Assembly: GCF_030068615.1 (NCBI RefSeq)
Contig: NZ_JASJOC010000016.1
Span: 1-64,000 of the forward strand
Direction of reading: 5' to 3'
Source: Halostagnicola sp. A-GB9-2
GTDB lineage: Archaea > Halobacteriota > Halobacteria > Halobacteriales > Natrialbaceae
Length of the DNA stretch: 64,000 nucleotides
The notes under the pieces were generated by a model. It was not told the origin of the DNA and did no database searches. It worked only from the letters and a program-made list of their open reading frames with translations. Position 1 is the first letter of the stretch; each line of letters begins with the position of its first letter. Below, piece after piece: positions 26,128-41,058 of this stretch. The position numbers and the translations under genes are program-made.

Positions 26128-27228
26128 ATGCGCTCTTTCATCCGCCGTCGACTGTCGCGCTCCGATTCGGTACGGATCGGAGTTCTGGGAGTCGGCAACA
26201 TCGGCAGTGTACACCTCAAATCGGCGCTCGCGATGCCGGGCGTCGACGTCGTCGCCGCGGCTGATACGGTTCCGAAGAATCGCGACCGGGCAGACAGCGC
26301 GGGCGTTACCCGCGTGTACGACGACTACGTGACGTTACTCGAGTCGGAAACGCTCGATGTCGCGATCGTCGCGTTGCCCCCGTTTCTCCACTGCGACGCC
26401 GTCGAAGTGGCCGCAGAAACCGGCGTTGATGTTTTCGTTGAAAAACCGTTTGCCCGGTCGACGGCCGAAGCCGACGAGATGCTCGAGGCGGCGTCCGAGG
26501 CCGGAATCCGCGTCGGCGTCGATCACACGCTTCGCTACCAGCCGGATCTTACCGGGCTCAAAGGGGCCTACGAGGACGGCACGGTGGGCCACGTTCCCCA
26601 CGCCTCGATGGTTCGGGTGAACGACGGTCCGCTGGGTCGACCGCCGGTCGAGGATGCACCCCCGGCCTGGCCGCTCGACCCCGACGCGACCGGCGGCGGC
26701 TCGCTGATGGAACTCGGCGTTCACTGTTTCGACTACCTGGAGTGGACGTTCGGTCCGCTCGAGATTCGGGATGCGATGATCGATACGACCCTCGAGGTGC
26801 CGGTCGAGGACGCAGCGACGGTCCTCATGGAAGCCCGAGAGACGGGAACCGCGGTTACGCTCCACTGTGGTTCCTACCAGTGGGAGGAGCTTCCGGAGGT
26901 GAACACCAACGTCCGCCTCGAGGGTATTACAGGCACAATCGAGAGCGAGGAGTATCTCCCGACGAATTTCTACGGGAGCGCCGCCCTCTCGGCCCTTTCG
27001 AACGTCGCGAGTCGGTTTACCGGCGGCGATCCGGCCGTTTACGGACCGACGTTCTACCTTCAGGCGCACTACGATGCGCTCTTCGATTTCGTGGACTCGA
27101 TTCGCGCGGACGAGACGCCGCCCGTAACCGGTGAAGACGGTCGACGGACGCTCGAACTGGTCGAGACGGCCTACGAACTCGCGGACGAAGATTGCGCCGA
27201 AGCCGACGCCCTCGAGGTGGTTTCATGA
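26128..27228 (+). CDS. Gfo/Idh/MocA-family oxidoreductase (operon with DUF362 and SDR genes)
   Basis: 366 aa. Rossmann start RIGVLGVGNIGSVHL (16-30), hallmark EKP (DVFVEKPFARS), and the canonical C-terminal GGGSLMELGVHCFDYLEW with the catalytic His. It is more canonical than, and distinct from, the paralogues at 7918 and 56511. The N-terminal 15 residues (MRSFIRRRLSRSDSV) are a basic extension with no alternative start. The stop TGA overlaps the next ATG (ATGA), so translation of the three-gene operon is coupled. It probably oxidises a nucleotide sugar of the surface glycan. Confidence 0.88.
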   Translation: MRSFIRRRLSRSDSVRIGVLGVGNIGSVHLKSALAMPGVDVVAAADTVPKNRDRADSAGVTRVYDDYVTLLESETLDVAIVALPPFLHCDAVEVAAETGVDVFVEKPFARSTAEADEMLEAASEAGIRVGVDHTLRYQPDLTGLKGAYEDGTVGHVPHASMVRVNDGPLGRPPVEDAPPAWPLDPDATGGGSLMELGVHCFDYLEWTFGPLEIRDAMIDTTLEVPVEDAATVLMEARETGTAVTLHCGSYQWEELPEVNTNVRLEGITGTIESEEYLPTNFYGSAALSALSNVASRFTGGDPAVYGPTFYLQAHYDALFDFVDSIRADETPPVTGEDGRRTLELVETAYELADEDCAEADALEVVS

Positions 27229-28247
27229 ATGACGATCGATCGCTGTCGGTTTCCAGCGTCTCCGTTCCGCGCGCGAATTCCAAGGGGCAACTGGCGGCAC
27301 GCGAATCGGCTCTCGAGGTGACGACCGAACGGTCTCAGGCGGGCGGGAACAACTGGACGCCCGCGATCGACGCGCGAATGGCCCGACTCGAGGGGCCCGT
27401 TCGAGAACTGATCGGATCGGTGCCGGATCCGTTCGCCGACGCCGCCGAGATAACTCTCTTGCCCGACGTCCACTATCCATTTCATCCCTCGACGGGGATG
27501 GTAACAGATCCGGCGGTCGTCGGCGCGGTCGCGGGCTATCTCGGGAACGAGACGTCGGCTGACCTCGTCGTCGCCGGCTCGAGCACCGAATCGATGGACC
27601 TCGATCGGACGACCGACTATCTCGGATATCCGGCGCTCGAGGAACGCTTCGACTGTCGACTTCGGGATCTTTCCTCGGATCGGGATTCTCGAGTCACCGT
27701 TTCGCTTTCCGATAGCGAGGCTCCGGTCGAACTCTCGATCCCGGACTTGTTGCTCGAGAACCCTGTCGTCGTCGTTCCGACGCTTCGCCCGACCGAAGCG
27801 GGGCCGATTGCGGGGGCGATGCGAACGCTCGGTCGACACGTCGAACCCGGCGTCGAGGGCCGCGGGCTGTCGGATGACCGCCGTGCTCGTGCGGCGACGA
27901 ACGCGGTCGAACCCGAACTATCGATCCTCGACGCGACGACCGTGTTCGCCGGCGAGGCGTTCGCCGCGGAAACCTTGTTCGCGGGCGACCCACTCGGCGT
28001 GGACACAGCCGGAACGACACTGCTCGGACGGGACGTTAACGATGACGCTGTGCTATCGACCGAACTCGGGCCGGGTCAGACATCGATTCAGGTCTCGGGG
28101 TGTGACTTCGATGCCCTTCGAGATCGCGTTCCGTCCGGCGATCTGCCGCCGCGGACGACGACCCATCCCGCAGTCTCGATCGCGTACGGGCTGTACGCGA
28201 AGGTCAGCGGGGACGCCGTTCCGCCCCAACTCGAGGTGGACCGATGA
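27225..28247 (+). CDS. DUF362-domain protein
   Basis: 340 aa from the ATG at 27225, which overlaps the upstream stop. An earlier in-frame start is inside the previous gene. ITLLPDVHYPFHPSTGMVTDPAV, AVAGYLGNETSADLVVAGSS and PVVVVPTLRPTE are typical of the DUF362 fold. No Cys pairs for an Fe-S cluster are present, unlike many DUF362 proteins. The product is soluble. Its place between a sugar oxidoreductase and an epimerase/dehydratase suggests a role in nucleotide-sugar or glycan metabolism, but the biochemistry is unknown. Confidence 0.78.
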   Translation: MNDDRSLSVSSVSVPRANSKGQLAARESALEVTTERSQAGGNNWTPAIDARMARLEGPVRELIGSVPDPFADAAEITLLPDVHYPFHPSTGMVTDPAVVGAVAGYLGNETSADLVVAGSSTESMDLDRTTDYLGYPALEERFDCRLRDLSSDRDSRVTVSLSDSEAPVELSIPDLLLENPVVVVPTLRPTEAGPIAGAMRTLGRHVEPGVEGRGLSDDRRARAATNAVEPELSILDATTVFAGEAFAAETLFAGDPLGVDTAGTTLLGRDVNDDAVLSTELGPGQTSIQVSGCDFDALRDRVPSGDLPPRTTTHPAVSIAYGLYAKVSGDAVPPQLEVDR

Positions 28248-29212
28248 CGAAGACGGCCGCCGTCACCGGTGCGACGGGCTTTCTCGGGTCACACCTCTGC
28301 GAACGATTGCTCGCCGACGGGTGGACGGTTCGCGGGCTCTCTCGCCCGACGTCGGATCGGGGCGACCTCGAGGGTCCCGTCGAGTGGTACGTCGGCGATC
28401 TGTTCGACGACGCGACGCTTCGATCGCTCGTCGACGAAACGGACGCGGTCTTCCACCTGGCCGGCATCGGCCTCTGGAGCGGCGACGCGGAGACAGTCGA
28501 GCGCGTCAACGCGGACGGAACGAAACGGCTCATCGATGCGTGTCAGCATTCGGAGACGGATGCCGGCAAACTCGTGTTTACGAGCACGGCGGGAACAAGG
28601 CGACCGCCCGTCGAGGGTGAGGTCGCGGACGAAACCGACTACGCCGCGCCGGTGGGTGCCTACCAGTCCTCGAAAGCCGAGGCGGAGGTGCTCGTCGACA
28701 ACTACGCGAGCACCGCGGGAGAGGCCGTCACCGTCCACCCGACATCGATTTTCGGCCCCGGAGACGAGACGTTCACCGCCCAGTTACTCGCGATGGCGAC
28801 CGATCCCACGATGTTCGTCTATCTCCCCGGCGGATTGAGCATCGTCGGCGTGGCGGACGTCGTCGACGGCATACTGGCCGCCTACGAACGCGGCGAAAAC
28901 GGCGGGCACTACATCCTCGGCGGCGAAAACCTCACGCTCGAGCAGGCTATCTCTCGAATCGCTCACTGTACGGGCGGTCATCGTGCACCCATCGAGGTCC
29001 CCTCGACGGCGATTCATGCCGCCGGACCCGTCGCCGAAACAGTCGGGGCCGTCTCCGGATTTCGAGTGTTCCCGTTCGACCGGGATATGGCCAAGTTGGC
29101 GACCAAGCGGCTCTACTACACCTCGAGAAAGGCACACGACGAACTCGGGTATACCTACGATCCGCTCGAGGAGCACGTCCCCGACGCGATGGCGTGGTAC
29201 CGTTCGCTGTAA
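28244..29212 (+). CDS. NAD-dependent epimerase/dehydratase (extended SDR)
   Basis: 322 aa. NAD-binding TGATGFLGSHL (8-18), AVFHLAGIGLWSGD, the catalytic Ser/Thr in VFTSTAGTRR and the YxxxK pair in YQSSKAEAE. It is the third gene of the ATGA-coupled operon. Family members make UDP-sugars or act on other nucleotide sugars and flavonoid-like substrates. Exact specificity cannot be told. HPTSIFGPGD and ILGGENLTLEQ are typical of the extended subgroup. Confidence 0.88.
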   Translation: MTKTAAVTGATGFLGSHLCERLLADGWTVRGLSRPTSDRGDLEGPVEWYVGDLFDDATLRSLVDETDAVFHLAGIGLWSGDAETVERVNADGTKRLIDACQHSETDAGKLVFTSTAGTRRPPVEGEVADETDYAAPVGAYQSSKAEAEVLVDNYASTAGEAVTVHPTSIFGPGDETFTAQLLAMATDPTMFVYLPGGLSIVGVADVVDGILAAYERGENGGHYILGGENLTLEQAISRIAHCTGGHRAPIEVPSTAIHAAGPVAETVGAVSGFRVFPFDRDMAKLATKRLYYTSRKAHDELGYTYDPLEEHVPDAMAWYRSL

Positions 29213-29402: not shown

Positions 29403-29433
29403 TTTTTTATACTGATAATTGGAATCCGAGCAT
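29403..29433 (+). promoter_or_regulatory. Promoter of the CitMHS transporter gene
   Basis: TTTTTTATACT (from 29403) lies 24-30 nt before the ATG at 29434. This supports that ATG as the start on a leaderless mRNA instead of the TTG at 29419. Confidence 0.6.
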
Positions 29434-30759
29434 ATGCTAGGATCTGGCTTACCGCTGGGTATTATCGGGTACGGAGCAATCTTTCTCATCCTGTTTCTTG
29501 TCATACGAAAAAGACTATACGTCATTCCGACACTAATTATCGTTCCGGTCGTTGCCGCGATAGTTGCCGGCTTTTCGTTTAACGAGATCGCGGAGTTCGC
29601 CGAAGAGGGGCTCCAGGGGATCGTCGGCATCACCGCGATGTTCGCGTTCGCCGTCTGGTACTTTAGCATCATGCGCGACAGCGGCCTGTTCGATCCGTTC
29701 GTTTCCAGAATCGTGAGCAGTATTATCAGTAAACCAGCGTTGCTCACGGTCGGTACCGTCGCCCTTGCGATGGTCACGCACTTAGACGGTGCCGGCGCGA
29801 CGACGATGCTCGTGACGATTCCGGCGATGTTGCCGCTGTACGACGCGCTCGACGTCGATCGAAAAATACTCGCCGCACTGGTCGCGCTTACGGCTGGGAC
29901 GATGAACATGGTGCCCTGGGGCGGACAGGTTGTCCGCGGCGTCGCTGCGATTGACCCGGCGACGATTTCAAACGTGTTCAACCCGATGATTCCCGCACAG
30001 GCCGCCGGACTGTTATCCGTTTTCGCGATCAGCGCCTTCTACGGTCGAAAGATTCGACAGGACATAGACGCCGTCACCGCCTTCGAGGGCGTTGACGAAC
30101 AGTCGCTCATCGACGAAGCGATCGACGACCGCAAAGTCGAGATGGATCGAACGTGGATCTTCAACTTCCTCCTCACAGTGGTCGTTCTCGGTGCGCTGAT
30201 CAGAGGGATTACGTCGCCGGAAGTCGCGTTCATGATCGGCGTCGTCCTTGCGCTCATCGTCAACGTGCCCGATTACGAGAAACAAAAAGAGGTCCTCGAG
30301 TCCTACGCACCCGACGTGATGACGTACGTCGGCATTCTGTTCTCTGCCGGTGTTCTCATTGGCGTTCTCGAGGAGAGCGGTATGGTCGACGAGATGGCGA
30401 ACATCATGGTGTACCTGATTCCGGACATGCTCGGCTCGCAACTCCCGGTCGTCATCGCAGTGTTGTCGCTTCCCGCCCGACTCCTGTTCAGTCCGGATGC
30501 GTTCTACTTCGGCGTCTTGCCGGTCCTCTCGGAAACGGCCGCCGCGTACGGACATGATCCCGTTTCGGTCGTCCGCGCGTCGCTAGTCGGCCAGACCGTC
30601 GGCTTTCCTGTTTCGCCGTTCACCGGTGCCACGTATCTCCTCATCGGGTTAGCAGGCGTCGAACTCGGCGAGCACATCAAGTTTACGTTGCCGCTCATGG
30701 TGATTCCATCAGGCGTCATCCTCATCGTCGCGGTCCTCACAGGTGCGATTCCGATATAG
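29434..30759 (+). CDS. CitMHS-family citrate/tricarboxylate transporter
   Basis: 441 aa with about 11-12 hydrophobic segments. THLDGAGATTMLVTIPAMLP (about residues 112-131) matches the family motif near the substrate site (LDGDGTTTLLL in citrate carriers), and NMVPWGGQVVRG is typical too. The start at 29434 is set by the TATA box. CitMHS proteins import metal-citrate or related acids by proton symport. It is followed by the 5-oxoprolinase-like gene set, so it might carry a substrate of that pathway, but no shared promoter shows this. Confidence 0.85.
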   Translation: MLGSGLPLGIIGYGAIFLILFLVIRKRLYVIPTLIIVPVVAAIVAGFSFNEIAEFAEEGLQGIVGITAMFAFAVWYFSIMRDSGLFDPFVSRIVSSIISKPALLTVGTVALAMVTHLDGAGATTMLVTIPAMLPLYDALDVDRKILAALVALTAGTMNMVPWGGQVVRGVAAIDPATISNVFNPMIPAQAAGLLSVFAISAFYGRKIRQDIDAVTAFEGVDEQSLIDEAIDDRKVEMDRTWIFNFLLTVVVLGALIRGITSPEVAFMIGVVLALIVNVPDYEKQKEVLESYAPDVMTYVGILFSAGVLIGVLEESGMVDEMANIMVYLIPDMLGSQLPVVIAVLSLPARLLFSPDAFYFGVLPVLSETAAAYGHDPVSVVRASLVGQTVGFPVSPFTGATYLLIGLAGVELGEHIKFTLPLMVIPSGVILIVAVLTGAIPI

Positions 30760-31100: not shown

Positions 31101-32003
31101 ATGGCAACCGAACAAATCACCCCTGTCGATCTTCCCGATCCCCGGTACGAGTACGGAGCCGATGATTTCGTGTTCGTCGAACTCGCGGAAGCGATGAGTT
31201 TCACCGCCAATTTCAAGGCGATGGCGATCACCCAGCAGGTCGCCGAGCGGGACATCGAGGGCGTCATCGAGAACTGCCCCGGCAACGCCTCGTACATGCT
31301 TCGGATCGATCCCGAAGTCATCCATCCGGACGGGTTGATCGAGCGGCTCAAATCGATCGAATCAGAGATCGATATCTCCGAGTACGAGTGGGAAACGCGC
31401 GTTATCGACGTCCCGGTGTTGTTCGAAGATCCGTGGACTCACGAGACGCTCATGGAGTTTCGGGACCGCCACCAGGATCCAGACGGAACCGACCTCGAGT
31501 ACTCCGCGGAACTGAACGGCTTCGATTCCGTCGACGCGTTCCTCGAGGCGTTCGTCGGCGCACCGCACATGGTTACGATGGTCGGGTTCGTTCCCGGTCT
31601 TCCGTGGTGTTTCCAGATGGTGCCCCGGAGCGAGCAACTCGAGGTGCCGAAGTACGTCGAACCGCGAACCGACACGCCGAGTCGGGCGGTCGGGTTCGGC
31701 GGGGCCTTCTCGGTCATCTATCCCGTCCAGGGAGCCGGCGGCTACCAGCTGTACGGCCGGACGCCGGTCGAAGTCCTGGACGTCGATCAGGAGCTTCCGG
31801 ATTTCGAAGAGTCGATCGTTTTCCCGAACCCCGGCGACATCCTGAACTACCGAGCCATCGACCGCGAGGAGTACGACGCGATCCGCGAGGAAGTCGAGAC
31901 CGGAACGTACGAGTACACCTACGAACGGGTCGAGTTCTCCCCCGACGAGTTCTTCGACGCGCCCCACGAATACAATGACCGTCTCGTGGAGGTGATCGAA
32001 TGA
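31101..32003 (+). CDS. pxpB: 5-oxoprolinase subunit PxpB (KipI family)
   Basis: 300 aa from the ATG at 31101 (MATEQITPVDLPD). The frame opens 9 codons earlier, but the TATA box argues for 31101. Carboxyltransferase subdomain C/D-like: FVFVELAEAMSFTANFKAM, PVLFEDPWTHETLMEF and the glycine motif GFVPGLPWCFQM (family: GFxPGFxYL). KipI-family proteins pair with KipA-family ones. With PxpA they hydrolyse 5-oxoproline using ATP, and they are homologous to the transferase half of urea carboxylase. The stop overlaps the PxpC start (ATGA), so the two are coupled. Confidence 0.88.
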   Translation: MATEQITPVDLPDPRYEYGADDFVFVELAEAMSFTANFKAMAITQQVAERDIEGVIENCPGNASYMLRIDPEVIHPDGLIERLKSIESEIDISEYEWETRVIDVPVLFEDPWTHETLMEFRDRHQDPDGTDLEYSAELNGFDSVDAFLEAFVGAPHMVTMVGFVPGLPWCFQMVPRSEQLEVPKYVEPRTDTPSRAVGFGGAFSVIYPVQGAGGYQLYGRTPVEVLDVDQELPDFEESIVFPNPGDILNYRAIDREEYDAIREEVETGTYEYTYERVEFSPDEFFDAPHEYNDRLVEVIE

Positions 32004-33004
32004 TCGAGATCCACGAGGGCGGTATTTCGAGTACCGTCCAGGACCTCGGTCGATCCGGGAACTATCACATCGGGATGCCGCCGTCGGGGGCGATGGACTC
32101 CTACGCACACACCGTCGCCAACTACCTCGTCGGGAACGAGGCCGACGCGGCGACGATCGAGATGACCTATCAGGGAATCACGGCAACGGTTCGGGAGGAC
32201 GCCGTCATCGCAGTTACGGGCGCGGATATGTCGCCGAGCGTCAACGGCGATCCGATCGGCATGTGGGAAACCGTCGCCGTCGAGGCGGGTGACGAACTCG
32301 CGATTTCCTTTGCGACCGACGGTGCTCGAGCCTACCTCGCTGTCGCGGGCGGGATCGATGTCCCGAACGTGATGGGCAGTCAGTCGACGTACACGCTCGT
32401 CGGAATCGGCGGCCACGAGGGACGGGGACTCGAGGACGGCGATCGGCTCGCGATCGGGAACGGTGACGGGGTCTCGAGCGCCGGCGGCGAAACCGCTTCA
32501 CCCGAGGAACTGGTCGGCACTGAACTTGCTGAGGAGTACGTCCCCGATTACGCCGAGGAAGATTCCGTCCGAATCGTCCTCGGATTGACCGATTACCGGC
32601 TCACGGACGACGCGAAGGAAACCCTTTGTGACACCGAGTGGAAGGTGTCCCCGGAAGCCGACCGGACCGGCTACCGGCTCGAGGGGCCGGATATCGAGTT
32701 CAAAGAGCGCGAACAGCCTTTCGGTGCTGGCCCGAATCCGTCGAACGTAGTGGATCTGGGGTACCCGGTCGGCTCGATTCAGGTCCCCCAGAAGCCGATC
32801 GTTCTCATGCAGGATGCGGTGACGGGAGGCGGATACGCGACCGTCGGAACCGTCATCAGCGTCGACCGCGGACTGCTCGCACAGCGCCAAACGCATAAAA
32901 CGGTCGCGTTCGATGCTGTCGACGTCGAAGCGGCTATTTCGGCGCGCGAACAACAGACTGAGCGACTCGAGGCGATCGAAGCCGAGATCGCGGGTGAACG
33001 GTGA
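32000..33004 (+). CDS. pxpC: 5-oxoprolinase subunit PxpC (KipA family)
   Basis: 334 aa, ATG overlapping the PxpB stop. Starts MIEIHEGGISSTVQDLGRSG, the usual KipA N-terminus, and has MPPSGAMDSYAHTVANYLVG. Near the end are QVPQKPIVLMQDAVTGGGYATVGTV-type motifs (quoted here in part: PIVLMQDAVTGGGYATVG). It pairs with PxpB as the transferase-like subunit. The 81-base gap to the biotin-carrier gene below contains AT-rich stretches, so that gene may have its own promoter. Confidence 0.88.
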   Translation: MIEIHEGGISSTVQDLGRSGNYHIGMPPSGAMDSYAHTVANYLVGNEADAATIEMTYQGITATVREDAVIAVTGADMSPSVNGDPIGMWETVAVEAGDELAISFATDGARAYLAVAGGIDVPNVMGSQSTYTLVGIGGHEGRGLEDGDRLAIGNGDGVSSAGGETASPEELVGTELAEEYVPDYAEEDSVRIVLGLTDYRLTDDAKETLCDTEWKVSPEADRTGYRLEGPDIEFKEREQPFGAGPNPSNVVDLGYPVGSIQVPQKPIVLMQDAVTGGGYATVGTVISVDRGLLAQRQTHKTVAFDAVDVEAAISAREQQTERLEAIEAEIAGER

Positions 33005-33085
33005 ACTGCACCGCACGACTCCGTTTGGACGATAACCGAAACGAAGAGCATAATTGGGACTAAATTCAATACGATACCAACGACA

Positions 33086-33328
33086 ATGTCAGAGACCACC
33101 ACTATCAACTCACCAATGCCGGGCGTCTTTTACCGACGGCCGGACCCGGACGAAGAACGGTTCGTCGAAGTAGGCGACCAGGTCGAGGAGGGCGAGAGGA
33201 TCGGCCTCGTCGAAGTAATGAAGAACTTTCACGATATTGAGGCCCCCGAAGCGGGGACCGTCGTCGAGTTTCTCGTCGAGAACGAAGGCGAGATAGAGGC
33301 CGATCAGGCCATCGCCCGACTCGAGTAG
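33086..33328 (+). CDS. Biotin/lipoyl attachment domain protein (BCCP-like)
   Basis: 80 aa, a bare biotinyl domain. INSPMPGVFYRRPDPDEERF is typical, with K46 in VEVMKNFHD in the place of the biotinylated Lys (family E-A/V-M-K-M; here N follows). Its end EIEADQAIARLE matches the domain's last strand. It carries CO2 between a biotin carboxylase (34365-35708) and a transferase, the most obvious candidate here being PxpB/PxpC. There is no N-terminal linker, unlike bacterial AccB. Confidence 0.87.
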   Translation: MSETTTINSPMPGVFYRRPDPDEERFVEVGDQVEEGERIGLVEVMKNFHDIEAPEAGTVVEFLVENEGEIEADQAIARLE

Positions 33329-33534
33329 TTATTGATTACTCGGCTCGAGCTCCCGTTGCTTGTCGAAGCGTTTTGTTCGAGGTCCAGAGCTGAGTTGCGT
33401 GATTTCCAACCCCAACCCGATTAATTATATATTGTGCAGACTTTTCGTCTGAGGGTAGATATGGTTCGAACTCTCCTCCTTTCGTTAGATAGATTGACGC
33501 AAGTTATATGGCCGTTTGCGTACGTGTAACGCGC

Positions 33535-34296
33535 ATGGACTCGATCGACATCAACTGCGATATTGGCGAGAGCTTCGGAAATTGGCAGATGGGCAACGAC
33601 GAACAGGTCATGCCCTACATCACGTCGGCGAATATCGCAGGCGGTTACCACGCGGGCGATCCCCACGTCATGCGAGAGACGGTCGAACTCGCCGCCGAGC
33701 ACAACGTCGGGATCGGCGTCCATCCCGGACTGCCCGACAAGATGGGGTTCGGTCGACGGACGATGGACGCCAGCCCCGAGGAAGTCCGGGACTACGTCGT
33801 CTACCAACTCGGCGCGCTCACGGCGTTCGCACGCCGCCACGGCGCGACCGTCCAACACGTCAAACCCCACGGCGCGATGTATTCGATGCTCTCCGACAGC
33901 GAGGACCACGCCCGCGCCGTCATGGAGGGAATGCTCGAGGTCGACCCTGATCTCATCTACCTCGCGACCGATATGAACATCTACGAGGTCGCACAGGACG
34001 TAGACGGATTACGGGCAGTTTTCGAGGGCTACGTCGATATCGATTACCGCGAAGATCGATCCCTGATCGTCGAGAAGGAGGTCGGCGATCGGGATCCCGA
34101 ACTCGTCGCCGAGCGGTTCGTCTCGATCGCAACTGAGGGGGTCGTCGAAGCTGTTACCGGCGAGGAGATATCCGTTCCAGCCGATAGCATCTGTATTCAC
34201 GGTGACAACCCCAACGCCGTCGAAATCCTCGAGGAGATTCACGATCGAATCGACGAGCACGATATCGGACTCGCCTCGCTTCCCGACATTGTCTGA
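33535..34296 (+). CDS. pxpA: 5-oxoprolinase subunit PxpA (LamB/YcsF family)
   Basis: 253 aa from the ATG at 33535, which has TTATAT at 33504-33509 about 27 nt upstream. The GTG/ATG frame reaching back to 33508 starts at the TATA box itself and is rejected. Family signature SIDINCDIGESFGNW, NIAGGYHAGDPHVM, GVHPGLPDKMGFGRR and QHVKPHGAMY. It is the subunit thought to bind and open the pyroglutamate ring. It is convergent with the biotin carboxylase gene, with 68 bases between the stops. Confidence 0.9.
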   Translation: MDSIDINCDIGESFGNWQMGNDEQVMPYITSANIAGGYHAGDPHVMRETVELAAEHNVGIGVHPGLPDKMGFGRRTMDASPEEVRDYVVYQLGALTAFARRHGATVQHVKPHGAMYSMLSDSEDHARAVMEGMLEVDPDLIYLATDMNIYEVAQDVDGLRAVFEGYVDIDYREDRSLIVEKEVGDRDPELVAERFVSIATEGVVEAVTGEEISVPADSICIHGDNPNAVEILEEIHDRIDEHDIGLASLPDIV

Positions 34297-34364
34297 GGGG
34301 TTTTCGGACGGCAGTGAGCCGCTGGCGACGAATCTGTCGTCTGAGAATTCGTTCTCTCCCCGGT

Positions 34365-35708
34365 CTACTCTTTGATCAACTCTTTTTCGACGTACGTCGT
34401 CGAGTGCTCGTTCTCGAGAAAGCCCTCGTCCTCGAGTAGTTGCTGATGGAAGGGAATCGTCGTCGGAATACCCTCGATATCGGTCTCTGTGAGCGCCCGC
34501 TTGCCGCGAGCGATCACTTCGTCCCTGTCTTCGCCGGTGACGATCACCTTGCCGAACATCGAATCGTAGAACGGCGTGATCGAATCACCTACGTCGACGC
34601 CGTCGTCCACTCGAACCCCGATTCCGCGGGGCGGGTTGTACGTCGAAAGCGTTCCGGGAATGGGCGTGAAATCATTGTCCGGATCCTCGGCGTTGAGGCG
34701 AAACTCCATCGCGACACCGTGTCGTTCGACGTCGTCCTGGTCGAAGGAGAGCTCTTCACCGGCTGCGACGCGGAGCTGCCACTTGACGAGGTCGATCCCT
34801 GTCAGTTCCTCGCTGACGCCGTGTTCGACCTGGATTCGCGCGTTAACTTCGATGAAATAGAACTCGCCGTCGTCGTACAGAAACTCGACCGTCCCGGCGT
34901 TGACGTATCCCGCACTCGAGACCCCTCGACGGGCGGCTTCGCAGAGGTCTTCGCGAGTTTGGTCGTTGAGTACCGGTGCTGGGGCCTCCTCGACGAGTTT
35001 CTGCTGGCGTCGCTGGATGCTACAGTCGCGCTCGCCGAGGTGGCGAACGTTCCCGTGCTCGTCGGCGATGATCTGCACCTCGATGTGGCGCGGATTCTCG
35101 AGGAAACGCTCGAGGTAGACGTTCGGATTGTCGAAGTAGGCGTCCCCCTCGCGAACCGCCTCCTGCAGTTTGGATTCGATCTGGCCGGGTTCGTAGACGA
35201 CCTTGAGACCGCGTCCGCCGCCGCCGCCGTCGGCTTTGATCGCGAGCGGGTAGCCGTGTTCTTCCCCGAACGCCTCGACCGCCGCCGGCTCGGTGACGGG
35301 CTCGGCCGTTCCCGGAACGACCGGCACGTTCGCCTGCTCCATGATCTTCCGCGCTTTCGTCTTCTCCCCGAAGTCGGCCATTGCCTCGCTTGGCGGGCCG
35401 ATCCACTCGAAGTCGCTCGCTTCGACGTTCGCGGCGAACGATTCGTTTTCGGCCAGGAAACCGTAGCCGGGGTGGATCGCGTCGGCGTCGGCCTCGCGGG
35501 CAGCCTCGAGGAGCGATTCCTGATCGAGATAGCTGTCTTTCGCCTTCGACCCGCCGATATGATAGGCCTCATCCGCTACTCGAACGTGTTTTGCATCTTC
35601 GTCTGCGTCACTGTAAACGGCAACGGCCTCGACATCAAGCTCTTTGCAAGCGTGAATGATACGAACCGCGATCTCCTCGCGGTTCGCGATTAGAACCTTC
35701 TCGAACAC
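34365..35708 (-). CDS. accC: Biotin carboxylase
   Basis: 447 aa from the GTG at 35708 ([17 protein letters not shown]), the usual start of the family. A TTG 4 codons upstream is less likely, and a TATA-like CTTTATC lies about 30 nt upstream of the GTG. ATP-grasp fold: [14 protein letters not shown] (about 158-171) is the Gly-rich loop. [18 protein letters not shown] carries the conserved RIQVEH, with Gly in place of the usual Pro. It carboxylates biotin on the separate carrier at 33086. Haloarchaeal acyl-CoA carboxylases usually fuse this domain to the carrier, so a lone form beside pxp genes fits a split urea-carboxylase-like enzyme. Confidence 0.9.
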
Positions 35709-35948: not shown

Positions 35949-37214
35949 TCATCCGGGTGACGATATTCCGTCCGCACGACGGATTTCAACCTCCACGGCG
36001 TTCGGCTCGTAGGCGTTCGCGGCGTACCCACCCTCGTTCCAGGGGAAATCGTCGTTCTCGAGCGCGTCGCGCCACGCGTCCGGTTCGGAAATCTTGGCCG
36101 GTTGTCGGCGGCCAAGTTCGTCCGTCGCACGCGACACCACCACATGAGTTCCCGGTTCGGCGTCCCAATCGAATCGGAATAACCGCCACGCGCGGGGGTA
36201 GTCGGGACCGAACAGTTCCGCGTCGTCCCACGACTCGCCGCCATCGGTCGAAATTTCGACGCCGCTAACCGCATCGTCGCCGGCCCAGGCGACGCCGCGA
36301 ACGTCGACGGTGCCGTCGGCTGGCACCGTCACGGGTGCTTTCCCGTCGGGGATGCCAACTACCGACATGACGTTCGCGTCGAACGTGTACGGATGGTCGA
36401 CCGCACCCTCAAGTTGCTCCCACGTATCGACGGTTTCGACGGTCTCGTTCGTCTCGGGCTCGACCCCCTCGGGATGGATGCGGTAGGACTCCTGTTGCCA
36501 GAACGCGTGTTCACCCGGTCGCTCGAGTGACCCTTCGGTCACCATCGAGTTCGTGATTCGAAGTTCTTCGACCCACTTTACGCTGTTGACGCCGTACCAT
36601 CCCGGAACGATCAGGCGGATCGGGTAGCCGTGTTCCCGCGGGAGTTGCTCGCCGTTCATCTCGTACGCCAGGAGACAGTCCTCGAGCGCCTTCGCGAGCG
36701 GAATCGAACGCGCGAACACGTCGTCTCCGTCCGCCGGGTCTCCGCCGATAGCAGTCATCCACTTTTCGTCGGCTGATTCGACGCCGTGTTTGCGGAGAAT
36801 CGAACTGATCGGGGTGCCGGTCCAGAAGGCGGTGGCCGCGGCTTCGAAGCCCCACTGAACGCTTCCAGTCTCGGGTCGATGCTGGCCGCGGCCGTTGCCT
36901 GCACATTCCATCGTATGCGCGACCGCGACCGTTGGAAACTCGTCTTCGATGTCGGACATCGAGATATCTCCCCCGATCTGACCGGTGAGAGAGACGATCC
37001 ACGCGTCGCGGTCGATATCTGGGATGTCGTTCCGGTGACAAACGAAGTGCTCTTCGATCGGCGTCAACCAGTTCACGAAGGTGCGTCGCTCGGCTGCGCC
37101 GACGACAGTGTACTTGTCGGCCTCGTCGCGCGTCTCCCTCACGCCACCCGCTTTCGTCTCGACTATTGCGTCGATTTCGTCGCGCCGGCTTTCTCGAGGG
37201 CGTTCGATACCCAT
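35949..37214 (-). CDS. Sulfite-oxidase-family molybdopterin oxidoreductase
   Basis: 421 aa from the ATG at 37214 (MGIERPRESRRDEIDA). The frame opens 18 codons earlier. The molybdenum-pterin domain has HTMECAGNGRGQHRPETG, with the Mo-ligand Cys at about residue 104. Later GYPIRLIVPGWYGVNSVKW and the C-terminal Ig-like dimerisation domain (about 280-400) with GVAWAGDDAVSGVEISTDGG complete the family pattern. There is no heme domain and no Tat signal, so a cytoplasmic form of the sulfite oxidase/nitrate reductase family is likely. Electron acceptor unknown. The electron-transfer operon 5 kb downstream is a candidate partner. Confidence 0.85.
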   Translation of the reverse strand: MGIERPRESRRDEIDAIVETKAGGVRETRDEADKYTVVGAAERRTFVNWLTPIEEHFVCHRNDIPDIDRDAWIVSLTGQIGGDISMSDIEDEFPTVAVAHTMECAGNGRGQHRPETGSVQWGFEAAATAFWTGTPISSILRKHGVESADEKWMTAIGGDPADGDDVFARSIPLAKALEDCLLAYEMNGEQLPREHGYPIRLIVPGWYGVNSVKWVEELRITNSMVTEGSLERPGEHAFWQQESYRIHPEGVEPETNETVETVDTWEQLEGAVDHPYTFDANVMSVVGIPDGKAPVTVPADGTVDVRGVAWAGDDAVSGVEISTDGGESWDDAELFGPDYPRAWRLFRFDWDAEPGTHVVVSRATDELGRRQPAKISEPDAWRDALENDDFPWNEGGYAANAYEPNAVEVEIRRADGISSPG

Positions 37215-37380
37215 AGGATGTCCTCCACTCACACGGTCAAATAACGATCCCCCTGGGACGTCTCCCACCTCTGTTGGCGACGCGAGTGGCGGGGTCCTCT
37301 CGACAGAACCGCCTTCACGGCGAGAGGTCCGCCTCGTTTTTCCGGGTCCCCGAACCTGACGAACTGTTCTTCCAACCCGT

Positions 37381-38772
37381 TTACGTCGCTGGCTCGATGT
37401 TCTGGTTTACGTGGAAGAAGTTGTCCGGATCGTACTTCGCTTTGACTTTCTGTAGTCGTTCGTAATTGTCGCCGTAGGTAGCACGGATCCGATCCTGTCC
37501 TTCCTCCATCATGAAGTTGACGTACGAACCGCCTGCCGAGTGCTCGTGGAGCGCCTGCCAGTAGTTCCGAGCCCAGTCTTTCATCTCCTCGAAATTTGCC
37601 GGATCTGGGTCGACGCCCGCGATGACCATCGACCAGTTGGCGTCTCGGTAGTTCCAGGCGGTCTCGTCCTCGCCGACGCTGTGGACGGCACCGTCGACGG
37701 GATAGAGGTGCATCGTCGACTTTGCGGTTGGCACCTCGGCGAAGCGCTGATGTTCGACAATGGCCTCGTCGGTGAGTTCGTCTACGAAGTCCCCCTTCCA
37801 GTACCACTGGTCACCCGGTGGGTAGAGACCGTCGAACATGCTTTGGAGTGCCGGATAGGGCATCGGATCGACATGCTCGAACAGCGGCTCAGCGATGTCT
37901 CGTGCCGGTTGTAACACGTCCTCGATTTCGTCTCTCGGGCCCGTGTAACACCACATCAGGCCACAGACCTTCTCGCCGTGGATCTCTTCGGGGAAGGGAT
38001 CACCCGGAACCTCGGCGGTGAGGTAGAACGCGTAGATATCTGCTGTCACTTCCGGGAGCCATTCGCGATACCAGCCCATTGTGGTCTCGAGTTCCTCGAT
38101 CGGCCAGAACATCGGTCCGGCGACCACCGTCTCCACCGGATGTAACTGGAACTCGAACGAGGTCACCACGCCGAAGTTGCCGCCGCCGCCGCGGAGCGCC
38201 CAGAACAGGTCTTCGTTTTCGTCTTCGCTCGCACGAACCAGCCGTCCGTCGGCCAGCACCACGTCCGCGCTCAGCAGATTATCGATAGCTAAGCCGTATT
38301 GTCGTGATAGATAGCCGTGACCGCCGCCGAGGGTCAGGCCGCCGACGCCTGTCGTGGAGATGATTCCGCTGACGGTCGCCAGCCCGAAGGCGTGGGTTGC
38401 GTGGTCGACGTTACCCCACGTACATCCGGGTTCGACGCGGACGGTTTTCGCTTCGGGATCGACACGGATGCCCGTCATCTCGGACAGGTCGATGACGAGC
38501 CCGTCGTCGACGAGAGACAGTCCGGGACCGTTGTGACCACCGCTCCGGATCGACGTTTCGAGATCGTGTTCGCGCCCGAAATTCACCGCTTTGATCACGT
38601 CCGCGATGTCGCGACACTGCGCGATCAGCAGCGGGTGTTTGTCGATCATCGCGTTATAAATAGCACGCGTATCGTCGAACTCCTCGTCGTCCGGTTGTAT
38701 CAGTTCTCCTCTATATGTTTGTTGTAATTGTTCGATCGCTTCGCTGACGTCGTCTTTTGCTGTCGTTGCCAT
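37381..38772 (-). CDS. FAD-linked oxidoreductase (berberine-bridge/BBE type)
   Basis: 463 aa from the ATG at 38772. The choice rests on a strong Shine-Dalgarno GGAGGAG about 6 nt upstream. The N-terminal FAD domain has ETSIRSGGHNGPGLSLVDDG, where the His of RSGGH should hold 8-alpha-histidyl FAD, and GVGGLTLGGGHGYLSRQYG. The Cys that would give the second covalent FAD link is missing (GIISTTGVGG). The C-terminal BBE segment GGSYVNFMMEEG and YDPDNFFHVNQNI completes it. Family members oxidise sugars or alcohols. A TATA-like TTATATGG at 38871-38878 is about 100 nt upstream, so this mRNA has a leader. Confidence 0.88.
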   Translation of the reverse strand: MATTAKDDVSEAIEQLQQTYRGELIQPDDEEFDDTRAIYNAMIDKHPLLIAQCRDIADVIKAVNFGREHDLETSIRSGGHNGPGLSLVDDGLVIDLSEMTGIRVDPEAKTVRVEPGCTWGNVDHATHAFGLATVSGIISTTGVGGLTLGGGHGYLSRQYGLAIDNLLSADVVLADGRLVRASEDENEDLFWALRGGGGNFGVVTSFEFQLHPVETVVAGPMFWPIEELETTMGWYREWLPEVTADIYAFYLTAEVPGDPFPEEIHGEKVCGLMWCYTGPRDEIEDVLQPARDIAEPLFEHVDPMPYPALQSMFDGLYPPGDQWYWKGDFVDELTDEAIVEHQRFAEVPTAKSTMHLYPVDGAVHSVGEDETAWNYRDANWSMVIAGVDPDPANFEEMKDWARNYWQALHEHSAGGSYVNFMMEEGQDRIRATYGDNYERLQKVKAKYDPDNFFHVNQNIEPAT

Positions 38773-39056
38773 GCTGTCTCCTCCGTTCCCGCGCTCTCGA
38801 CACATCACAGACTGCTCTCCGTGTCACTGAGCGCTAGTCCGTCTACAACGCATGCAATGTTAATTGTTACCATATAACAAGGGGCCTGTGAGTCGCTCGG
38901 CGAACGGTTCGAGCGCGTGAAAATAGGTCACTCTCTGCTGGCTCCGGATACTCACGTTCGCTCGGGAGTCGTTTCGGATGTCTGTTTCGTACAACACAGC
39001 AAGTCAGGTACCGGTTGCGTAGATCGGGCAGAATTTCTAGATTTGGCTGATCTCGA

Positions 39057-40373
39057 TTATGCCTCTTGGACGGTTTCTACCGCACGATGCAGTTCTGAAA
39101 GGCCGTGTTCGAGCTGTTCGCGGCTGATTATCAGCGGCGGCTGGAATCGCAGGACGTTCTTGTAGTAGCCGCCGACGCCCATCACGACGTTTGATTCCTC
39201 GCGAAGGTGGTCGCTCACAGCCGTCGCTAACTCGGCATCCGGTTGCGGGGCGACGCCGTGTGGGCCGGTTTCTGTCGGCTCTACGAGTTCGATACCGTGC
39301 ATCAAGCCGATTCCGCGGGTTTGCCCGACGACGTCGAACTCCTCCTCGAGCGCTCCGAGTTCGCCCTCGAGCCACTCGCCGTGCTCGCGCGTTTCCTCGA
39401 CGATTCCATCCTGAAGTGCTTCGATCGTTGCGAGTGCAGCCGCGCAGGCGACGGGGTTTCCGCCGAACGTCGAAAGGTGATCTCCGGCTTCGAACGCGTC
39501 TGCCACCTCGGCCGAGGCCGTGAACGCACCGAGTGGGAGCCCGTTGGCGATTCCCTTCGCTTGCGTGAGGATGTCGGGTTCCGCGCCGAAGTGACTGCTG
39601 GCGAACAGTTCGCCGGTCCGACCGTACCCCGTCTGGACTTCGTCCGCAATCAAGAGCGCGTCGTGGTCGTGTGCGATCTCCTGGACCCGCTCGAGCCACC
39701 CTTCAGGTGGAACGATGATCCCGGCTTCCCCCATTACGGGTTCGACGACGACGGCCGCGAGGTCACCGCTGGTGTGGGTACCGATGACGTGCTCGAGGTC
39801 GTCGGCACACGACTCGTCGCAACTGTCTCCTTCGCAGGTCGAACAGCGATAGCCGTACGGAGCGGCGGCGTGGGAAACGTCGTTTAACGTCGGTGCCATT
39901 CCCTTCTTGTAGGCGTTGTTTCCCGTCAGCGACAGGCTCCCGAGCGTTCTCCCGTGAAAGCCCATCTCGAGGGCGACGATTTCCTTCGATCCGGTGTACT
40001 TCCGGGCAAGTTTGACCGCCCCTTCGACGGCTTCGGTCCCCGAATTACAGAAGAAGCTCTTCTGGAGATTTCCCGGGGTCACGTCGGCGATCGTCTCCGC
40101 GAGCGTCGCGACCGGCTCGTTCGGGTGGACGTACGAGCAGCCGTGGACGAACTCGTCGAGTTGGTCTTTCGCCGCGTCGACGACAGCCTCGTTTCCGTGA
40201 CCGACGTTCGTTACCGAAATCCCAGAGAAGAGATCGAGGTATTCGTTTCCGTCGAAATCCTCGAGCGTACACCCGGTCGCTTGTTTGATGGGCACGTTCA
40301 GTGACTTCCAGATCGGCATGACGTGTTCGTCGTAGGTCGCTTTGACCGACGAGTTCGTCTGATGTTCGGACAT
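39057..40373 (-). CDS. Class III aminotransferase (PLP)
   Basis: 438 aa. FFCNSGTEAVEGAVKLARKY binds PLP phosphate. LLIADEVQTGYGRTG holds the PLP-N1-binding Asp, and K273 in TQAKGIANGLPLGAF is the Schiff-base Lys. An insert with C177-x2-C180-x4-C185-x3-C189 occurs near the active-site region, as in many archaeal and bacterial class III enzymes. It could be a 4-aminobutyrate, alanine-glyoxylate-type or other omega-aminotransferase. The Lrp/AsnC regulator gene is divergent across 193 bases and probably controls it. Confidence 0.85.
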   Translation of the reverse strand: MSEHQTNSSVKATYDEHVMPIWKSLNVPIKQATGCTLEDFDGNEYLDLFSGISVTNVGHGNEAVVDAAKDQLDEFVHGCSYVHPNEPVATLAETIADVTPGNLQKSFFCNSGTEAVEGAVKLARKYTGSKEIVALEMGFHGRTLGSLSLTGNNAYKKGMAPTLNDVSHAAAPYGYRCSTCEGDSCDESCADDLEHVIGTHTSGDLAAVVVEPVMGEAGIIVPPEGWLERVQEIAHDHDALLIADEVQTGYGRTGELFASSHFGAEPDILTQAKGIANGLPLGAFTASAEVADAFEAGDHLSTFGGNPVACAAALATIEALQDGIVEETREHGEWLEGELGALEEEFDVVGQTRGIGLMHGIELVEPTETGPHGVAPQPDAELATAVSDHLREESNVVMGVGGYYKNVLRFQPPLIISREQLEHGLSELHRAVETVQEA

Positions 40374-40566: not shown

Positions 40567-41058
40567 ATGGATCAACGTGACATTCGTATCCTTCAGGCGA
40601 TTGCACAACTCGGGTCGGGAAGCCCGGACGAGATCGCAGATCACACCGACATCCCCAAATCGACAGTACACTATCGGTTGACCAAACTCAAAGAGGCGGA
40701 CGTCGTGACCAACGACCTGTTCGATATCGACCTCGAGAAGCTGGGACTGGATATTACGGTCGTCACGGAGGTCATCGCAGAGTACGACGAGCAGTACCAC
40801 AAACAGGTCGGCAATAAACTCGCCGACATCGAGGGCGTTAATCAGGTCTATTTCACGATGGGTGATACTGATTTCGTCGTTATTTCACACCTCTCGGATC
40901 GGGAGATGGTCAACCGGCTCATCAGCGACTACGAACGAATCGACGAGGTCGTCAGAACCAGTTCGCAGTTCGTCGTCGAAACCGTCAAAGACGAACCGAA
41001 TCCGCTCAACGATTTCGAACTGGAGACGCTTCTGGAACAGACACACGAAATCGACTGA
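40567..41058 (+). CDS. Lrp/AsnC-family transcriptional regulator
   Basis: 163 aa from the ATG at 40567 (MDQRDIRILQAIAQLG). The upstream 51 codons are rejected as they lie in the promoter; an AT-rich TGTTGTTTATTGG about 30 nt before the ATG fits a TATA box. HTH: SPDEIADHTDIPKSTVHYRL. The C-terminal RAM-like ligand domain follows (about 65-150), with VVTEVIAEYDEQYHKQVGNK. It is divergent from the aminotransferase and likely senses an amino acid. Confidence 0.88.
   Translation: MDQRDIRILQAIAQLGSGSPDEIADHTDIPKSTVHYRLTKLKEADVVTNDLFDIDLEKLGLDITVVTEVIAEYDEQYHKQVGNKLADIEGVNQVYFTMGDTDFVVISHLSDREMVNRLISDYERIDEVVRTSSQFVVETVKDEPNPLNDFELETLLEQTHEID

Follow-up and report, generated by a model that had tools for sequence, protein, structure and literature searches.

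A stretch of 64,000 nucleotides from the haloarchaeon Halostagnicola sp. A-GB9-2 (contig NZ_JASJOC010000016.1; the whole stretch is referred to as the window) encodes homologues of PxpA, PxpB and PxpC together with a lone biotin carboxyl carrier protein and a lone biotin carboxylase (BC), and we consider it probable that these five genes specify one multi-subunit, biotin-dependent amide or lactam N-carboxylase whose product is hydrolyzed by PxpA. The lone BC would carboxylate biotin on the lone carrier, using ATP and bicarbonate, and PxpB and PxpC would form the carboxyltransferase (CT) that passes the carboxyl group on to the nitrogen of an amide, most likely a lactam. PxpA would then hydrolyze the N-carboxy-lactam, and the resulting carbamate would lose CO2 to yield the open amino acid, which in the window a class III aminotransferase could feed into central metabolism. 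Where a molybdenum hydroxylase is present, it might act upstream by turning an N-heterocycle or cyclic imine into the lactam. The proposed scheme parallels the action of urea carboxylase followed by allophanate hydrolase, PxpA taking the place of the latter. We infer that the proteins form a complex in Halostagnicola and that an N-carboxy intermediate arises, and likewise what PxpA does and which substrate is used. If true, the range of biotin chemistry would extend past urea and guanidine to amide/lactam N-carboxylation, and many 'acetyl-CoA carboxylase' annotations, probably erroneous, would be accounted for.

An earlier note on this DNA had singled out the five genes as a possible split urea-carboxylase-like enzyme, and open reading frames and Pfam matches place all five where it had located them (Table 1), the matches being complete and far above the cut-offs. 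The predicted biotin lysine of the carrier, K46 (codon 33221-33223) in the motif EVMKN (context VEVMKNF), is likewise present as described. The carrier resembles the C-terminal domain of E. coli AccB and exceeds the cut-off of NF005457 (105.7 versus 87 bits). The BC has complete biotin carboxylase N, ATP-grasp and C domains and no carrier domain, retains the catalytic motifs in alignments and passes NF006367 (611 bits, cut-off 597). The general features of a biotin-dependent carboxylase, a complete BC and a carrier with the biotin-lysine motif, are hence present. PxpA scores 303.5 bits with NF003814 (cut-off 226) and matches the structure of Pyrococcus PH0986 (1v6t) with E=6e-74. The start of pxpC overlaps the end of pxpB by 4 bases, and the BC gene is convergent to the other four.

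The inheritance of the set was followed in 100 related haloarchaeal genomes, with a carrier threshold of E<1e-20 and a BC counted as lone if unfused. PxpC was found in 19 of these and PxpA in 18; the genomes with an unfused BC are exactly the 18 with PxpA, and those with the short carrier exactly the 19 with PxpC. The odd genome (G089), with a PxpC fragment beside a carrier and neither PxpA nor a lone BC, holds a decayed remnant of the locus. Among the 100 relatives, complete pxp genes never occurred without a lone BC and carrier, nor a lone BC and carrier without pxp genes. As Fisher tests over these relatives ignore phylogeny, weight was placed on all-or-none differences within genera: presence and absence vary within genera g1, g3, g5, g14 and g26, indicating that the set was repeatedly gained or lost as one unit. 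From one haloarchaeal species to another, the order and strand of the genes are scrambled, but they usually lie within a few kb of each other. The co-occurrence that the earlier note had proposed as a check thus holds across haloarchaea, and its all-or-none character argues that the five genes are not chance neighbours.

Co-occurrence also extends beyond haloarchaea. A genome scan with a narrower PxpC alignment returned at least 80 loci, all listed ones alphaproteobacterial, and 77 of the 80 listed carry all five genes on one strand as an operon, pxpA-carrier-BC-pxpB-pxpC (one of the 77, L134, with broken frames); the remaining three are on short contigs. The same operon is found on annotated Rhizobium plasmids, an R. 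leguminosarum plasmid has the same parts in another arrangement, and a Lactiplantibacillus plasmid reads pxpB-pxpC-carrier-BC-hydrolyase-pxpA-NRAMP. In a random sample of Pseudomonadota, stand-alone PxpC loci were partly with and partly without a BC. Of 82 bacterial loci, 16 have a gene for the biotin transporter BioY nearby, and at several of them it directly follows pxpC. Some bacterial loci deviate in their parts. In R. leguminosarum (L062, 4878-5300), the genes for BC and pxpB flank one for a second, carrier-like protein of 140 aa that shows no evident biotin-lysine motif of the usual kind, and carrier-like proteins without an evident motif also occur in L207 and L208; the second protein is possibly a non-biotinylated structural copy. 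PxpB and PxpC form a single fused protein in L192 and L171 (711-codon frame), while BC, carriers and PxpA are encoded on the other strand at a distance of a few kb.

In a PxpC tree with full-length urea carboxylases as outgroup, the window PxpC groups with the PxpC of the alphaproteobacterial five-gene operons (100/99), apart from all other PxpC. The BC tree is different: the lone BCs of haloarchaea are nested among the BCs of haloarchaeal acyl-CoA carboxylases (100/100), whereas those of the alphaproteobacterial operons make up a separate clade elsewhere. BCs of different origin accompany the same PxpBC type, and the BC partner was thus recruited separately; that one PxpBC type acquired its BC from different sources argues strongly for its dependence on such a partner. 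Archaea and bacteria both keep the set with BC and carrier, and each recruited the BC on its own, which suggests a carboxylation mechanism; the five-gene version challenges the accepted view of PxpABC as biotin-free.

The same descent of the haloarchaeal BC could be read differently, namely that the lone BC and carrier are parts of an acyl-CoA carboxylase with a remote carboxyltransferase and that PxpABC is an ordinary biotin-free 5-oxoprolinase, their neighbour by chance. The only other BC in the genome of the window is fused to a carrier and adjoins its own carboxyltransferase, and two further Carboxyl_trans genes could provide such a partner. However, no carboxyltransferase of family PF01039 belonging to the BC and carrier lies within the five-gene set, and in complete genomes of the same family the number of PF01039 genes is equal with and without the set (mean 2.23 versus 2.26, p=0.73), while that of BCs rises (2.38 versus 1.19). 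On these carboxyltransferase counts, a housekeeping acyl-CoA carboxylase role of the lone BC and carrier was rejected. Their strict confinement to pxp-bearing relatives and the single alphaproteobacterial operon speak against the remote-subunit explanation as well, which we regard as very improbable. The earlier note had named an acyl-CoA carboxylase with a distant subunit, and pxp genes alone in relatives, as what would overturn its idea; in haloarchaea, complete pxp genes are always accompanied by BC and carrier, and no extra carboxyltransferase comes with them.

The notion of a split urea-carboxylase-like enzyme also fits the protein sequences. TIGR02712 (urea carboxylase) outscores the 5-oxoprolinase models for both CT halves, with 104 versus 73 bits for PxpB (TIGR00370, 5-oxoprolinase subunit; cut-off 145.55) and 218 versus 205 bits for PxpC (NF045499; cut-off 500), and PxpB could be aligned to K. 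lactis urea carboxylase over residues 11-294, bearing out the claimed homology to the transferase part of that enzyme. PxpB and PxpC thus miss the cut-offs of the curated NCBIfam 5-oxoprolinase equivalogs; homologues of PxpA, PxpB and PxpC are nonetheless encoded together, as in the PxpABC 5-oxoprolinases (E. coli YbgJKL, B. subtilis KipI/KipA/YcsF), to which the window set adds an obligate BC and biotin carrier. The BC, CT and carrier modules of TIGR02712 are all represented, every protein matching its own part of the model, whose cut-off of 1303.85 bits applies to a single polypeptide of ~1200 aa and is not reached by separate proteins scoring 104, 218, 25 and 494 bits. In the CT loop R..GAG..PSN..D..Y, the positions R237, A243, G244, N249, D252 and Y255 are conserved to at least 90% in both urea carboxylases and the window clade, and the loop is missing from other PxpC. 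A structure model of PxpC with a middling pLDDT of 73 is taken to confirm the CT fold and nothing more.

Urea carboxylase and urea amidolyase (K. lactis 3va7, 5i8i) thus share with the window set the three modules BC, CT (PxpC-like plus PxpB-like) and carrier, as well as the CT loop, and in them, too, a hydrolase then acts on the carboxylated amide, as we propose for PxpA. Unlike these enzymes, the window set is divided into four proteins, has PxpA where an amidase-type allophanate hydrolase would be, and contains a PxpC from a separate clade of the tree. Taken literally, the label would imply a true urea or guanidine carboxylase, in which BC, carrier and PxpBC produce allophanate or carboxyguanidine for hydrolysis by PxpA or a nearby amidase. 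Urea carboxylase is indeed the closest curated model of PxpB, an amidase stands beside 3 of 17 haloarchaeal loci, and a cytosine permease/deaminase beside one other. These amidases remain far under the allophanate hydrolase cut-off, however (~180 versus 511 bits), the PxpC clade is separate from full-length urea carboxylases, and one alphaproteobacterial genome (G100) has both the five-gene set and a full-length urea carboxylase. Since every complete locus retains PxpA, which does not hold for a true allophanate hydrolase, urea itself is an unlikely substrate, and we give a true split urea or guanidine carboxylase little credence.

Several points weigh against N-carboxylation by the five-gene set. 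With the BC gene on the opposite strand, the five genes of the window are not one transcript; two relatives (G019, G043) have BC and PxpA at a distance of tens to hundreds of kb, and a third (G005) the carrier, in each case on the same contig. The neighbour genes vary, so that no single substrate is fixed. In the literature to May 2026, PxpBC is assumed to phosphorylate 5-oxoproline directly (PMC13274462), and ATPase activity was reported in co-purified PxpBC (PMC8453981). No published biochemistry was found for the PxpBC clade of the window, nor, in the open-licence literature, any publication on a biotin-dependent PxpABC. PxpABC might accordingly phosphorylate the lactam itself with ATP, BC and carrier merely boosting the reaction, e.g., via carboxyphosphate or bicarbonate, without a carboxylated substrate. 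Besides being the accepted scheme, such phosphorylation would agree with the existence of PxpABC loci without BC and with the unrelated ATP-dependent caprolactamase CapAB, which needs bicarbonate and no biotin, although lactam carboxylation is among its proposed mechanisms (PMC8453981). It would leave unexplained, however, why a biotin carrier and BioY are retained and why the urea-carboxylase loop is kept in the CT halves; moreover, PxpBC falls into a carboxyltransferase family and matches no ATP-binding family in Pfam. Overall, we consider phosphorylation with a mere boost unlikely and favor N-carboxylation.

Other workers already have a related complex: PDB entry 9yx5 (M. smegmatis) lists 'Allophanate hydrolase subunit 1' and '2' together with AccA3, so that a single solved entry contains PxpB/PxpC-type proteins and a subunit with both biotin carboxylase and carrier. 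In alignments to the window proteins, these chains are close to those of M. smegmatis 3mml. AccA3 is a fusion of BC and carrier and the alpha subunit common to mycobacterial acyl-CoA carboxylases, whereas the window has separate dedicated proteins; also, M. smegmatis PxpC lacks the urea-carboxylase loop that is present in the window PxpC. Together with BioY near bacterial loci, 9yx5 is a clue that points towards biotin chemistry as such. It is conceivable, if somewhat short of probable, that all PxpABC 'prokaryotic 5-oxoprolinases' are biotin-dependent, with PxpBC as a lactam N-carboxyltransferase, and that lineages without a dedicated BC and carrier borrow the housekeeping AccB/AccC or AccA3. 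This wider reading is based on three observations. Firstly, BC linkage requires five changes on the PxpC tree, BC-linked and BC-free lineages interleaving, with a BC beside pxpABC also in other PxpC lineages and the BC-free E. coli PxpC nested in a BC-linked clade. Secondly, of 48 positions conserved in urea carboxylase and the window clade alike, 37 remain at 70% or more in BC-free PxpC. Thirdly, 9yx5 lists a canonical-type PxpBC alongside AccA3. PxpABC is the commonest 5-oxoprolinase of prokaryotes (PMC13274462), and its use of ATP has so far only been assumed; if biotin dependence were general, the accepted lactam-phosphorylation mechanism would be wrong.

Table 1. Coordinates of the five-gene set and of neighbouring genes in the window.
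Feature	Position	Strand	Remarks
PxpB/KipI-type protein	31101..32003	+	ATG at 31101; 300 aa; PF02682 (CT_C_D) 124 bits; CT subdomain C-D of urea carboxylase, with the longer C-terminus of urea carboxylase
PxpC/KipA-type protein	32000..33004	+	CT subdomain A-B; PF02626 (CT_A_B) 290 bits
Urea-carboxylase-type loop in PxpC	32708..32764	+	residues 237-255, R..PFGAGPNPSNVVDLGY
Lone biotin carboxyl carrier protein	33086..33328	+	80 aa; PF00364 (Biotin_lipoyl) 65 bits
PxpA (LamB/YcsF family)	33535..34296	+	PF03746 300 bits; putative hydrolase of carboxylated amide
Lone BC	34365..35708 (GTG) or 35720 (TTG)	-	three BC domains (Pfam)
Class III aminotransferase	39057..40373	-	probable downstream pathway gene
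Lrp/AsnC-type regulator	40567..41058	+	near the set in 6 haloarchaeal loci

As to the substrate, the class III aminotransferase is kept in five haloarchaeal loci (window, L022, L023, L025 and L068), adjoins the BC gene in H. larsenii and occurs at seven alphaproteobacterial loci, accompanied at six of them by a succinate-semialdehyde dehydrogenase. Molybdenum hydroxylases of the xanthine dehydrogenase family lie near the set in 5 haloarchaeal and 11 alphaproteobacterial loci, which suggests an upstream oxidation of a heterocycle to a lactam. CapAB is found near the set in 9-10 bacterial loci; like the eukaryotic-type 5-oxoprolinase, it opens lactams in an ATP-driven manner, but both have a fold unrelated to the set and use no biotin. 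Taken together, the aminotransferase, dehydrogenase, molybdenum hydroxylase and caprolactamase neighbours suggest a catabolic lactam or omega-amino-acid substrate. We lean towards a lactam, while 5-oxoproline in particular appears a rather doubtful candidate.

The molybdenum hydroxylase beside the haloarchaeal set is encoded by three-subunit genes in L021, L024, L026, L034 and L035, and L027 has XdhC and MoeA; large subunits also stand beside bacterial sets, e.g., in L195 and L138. The CapA/CapB loci are L132, L133, L135, L140-L142, L145-L147 and L150, the last with weak homologues only; in L135, the sole locus tested, both proteins score above the curated cut-offs. At such loci, two unrelated ATP-dependent lactam-opening systems lie side by side.

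The CitMHS permease upstream of the set (29419-30759) was rejected as a part of the system, as it is found in no other locus. Between BC and aminotransferase (35949-38808), the window encodes a sulfite-oxidase-type molybdopterin oxidoreductase and a berberine-type FAD oxidase. Further upstream (27192-29212), a DUF362 protein and an NAD-dependent epimerase adjoin a Gfo/Idh/MocA oxidoreductase and a polysaccharide deacetylase, and this DUF362/epimerase block also precedes pxpB in H. larsenii (L067).

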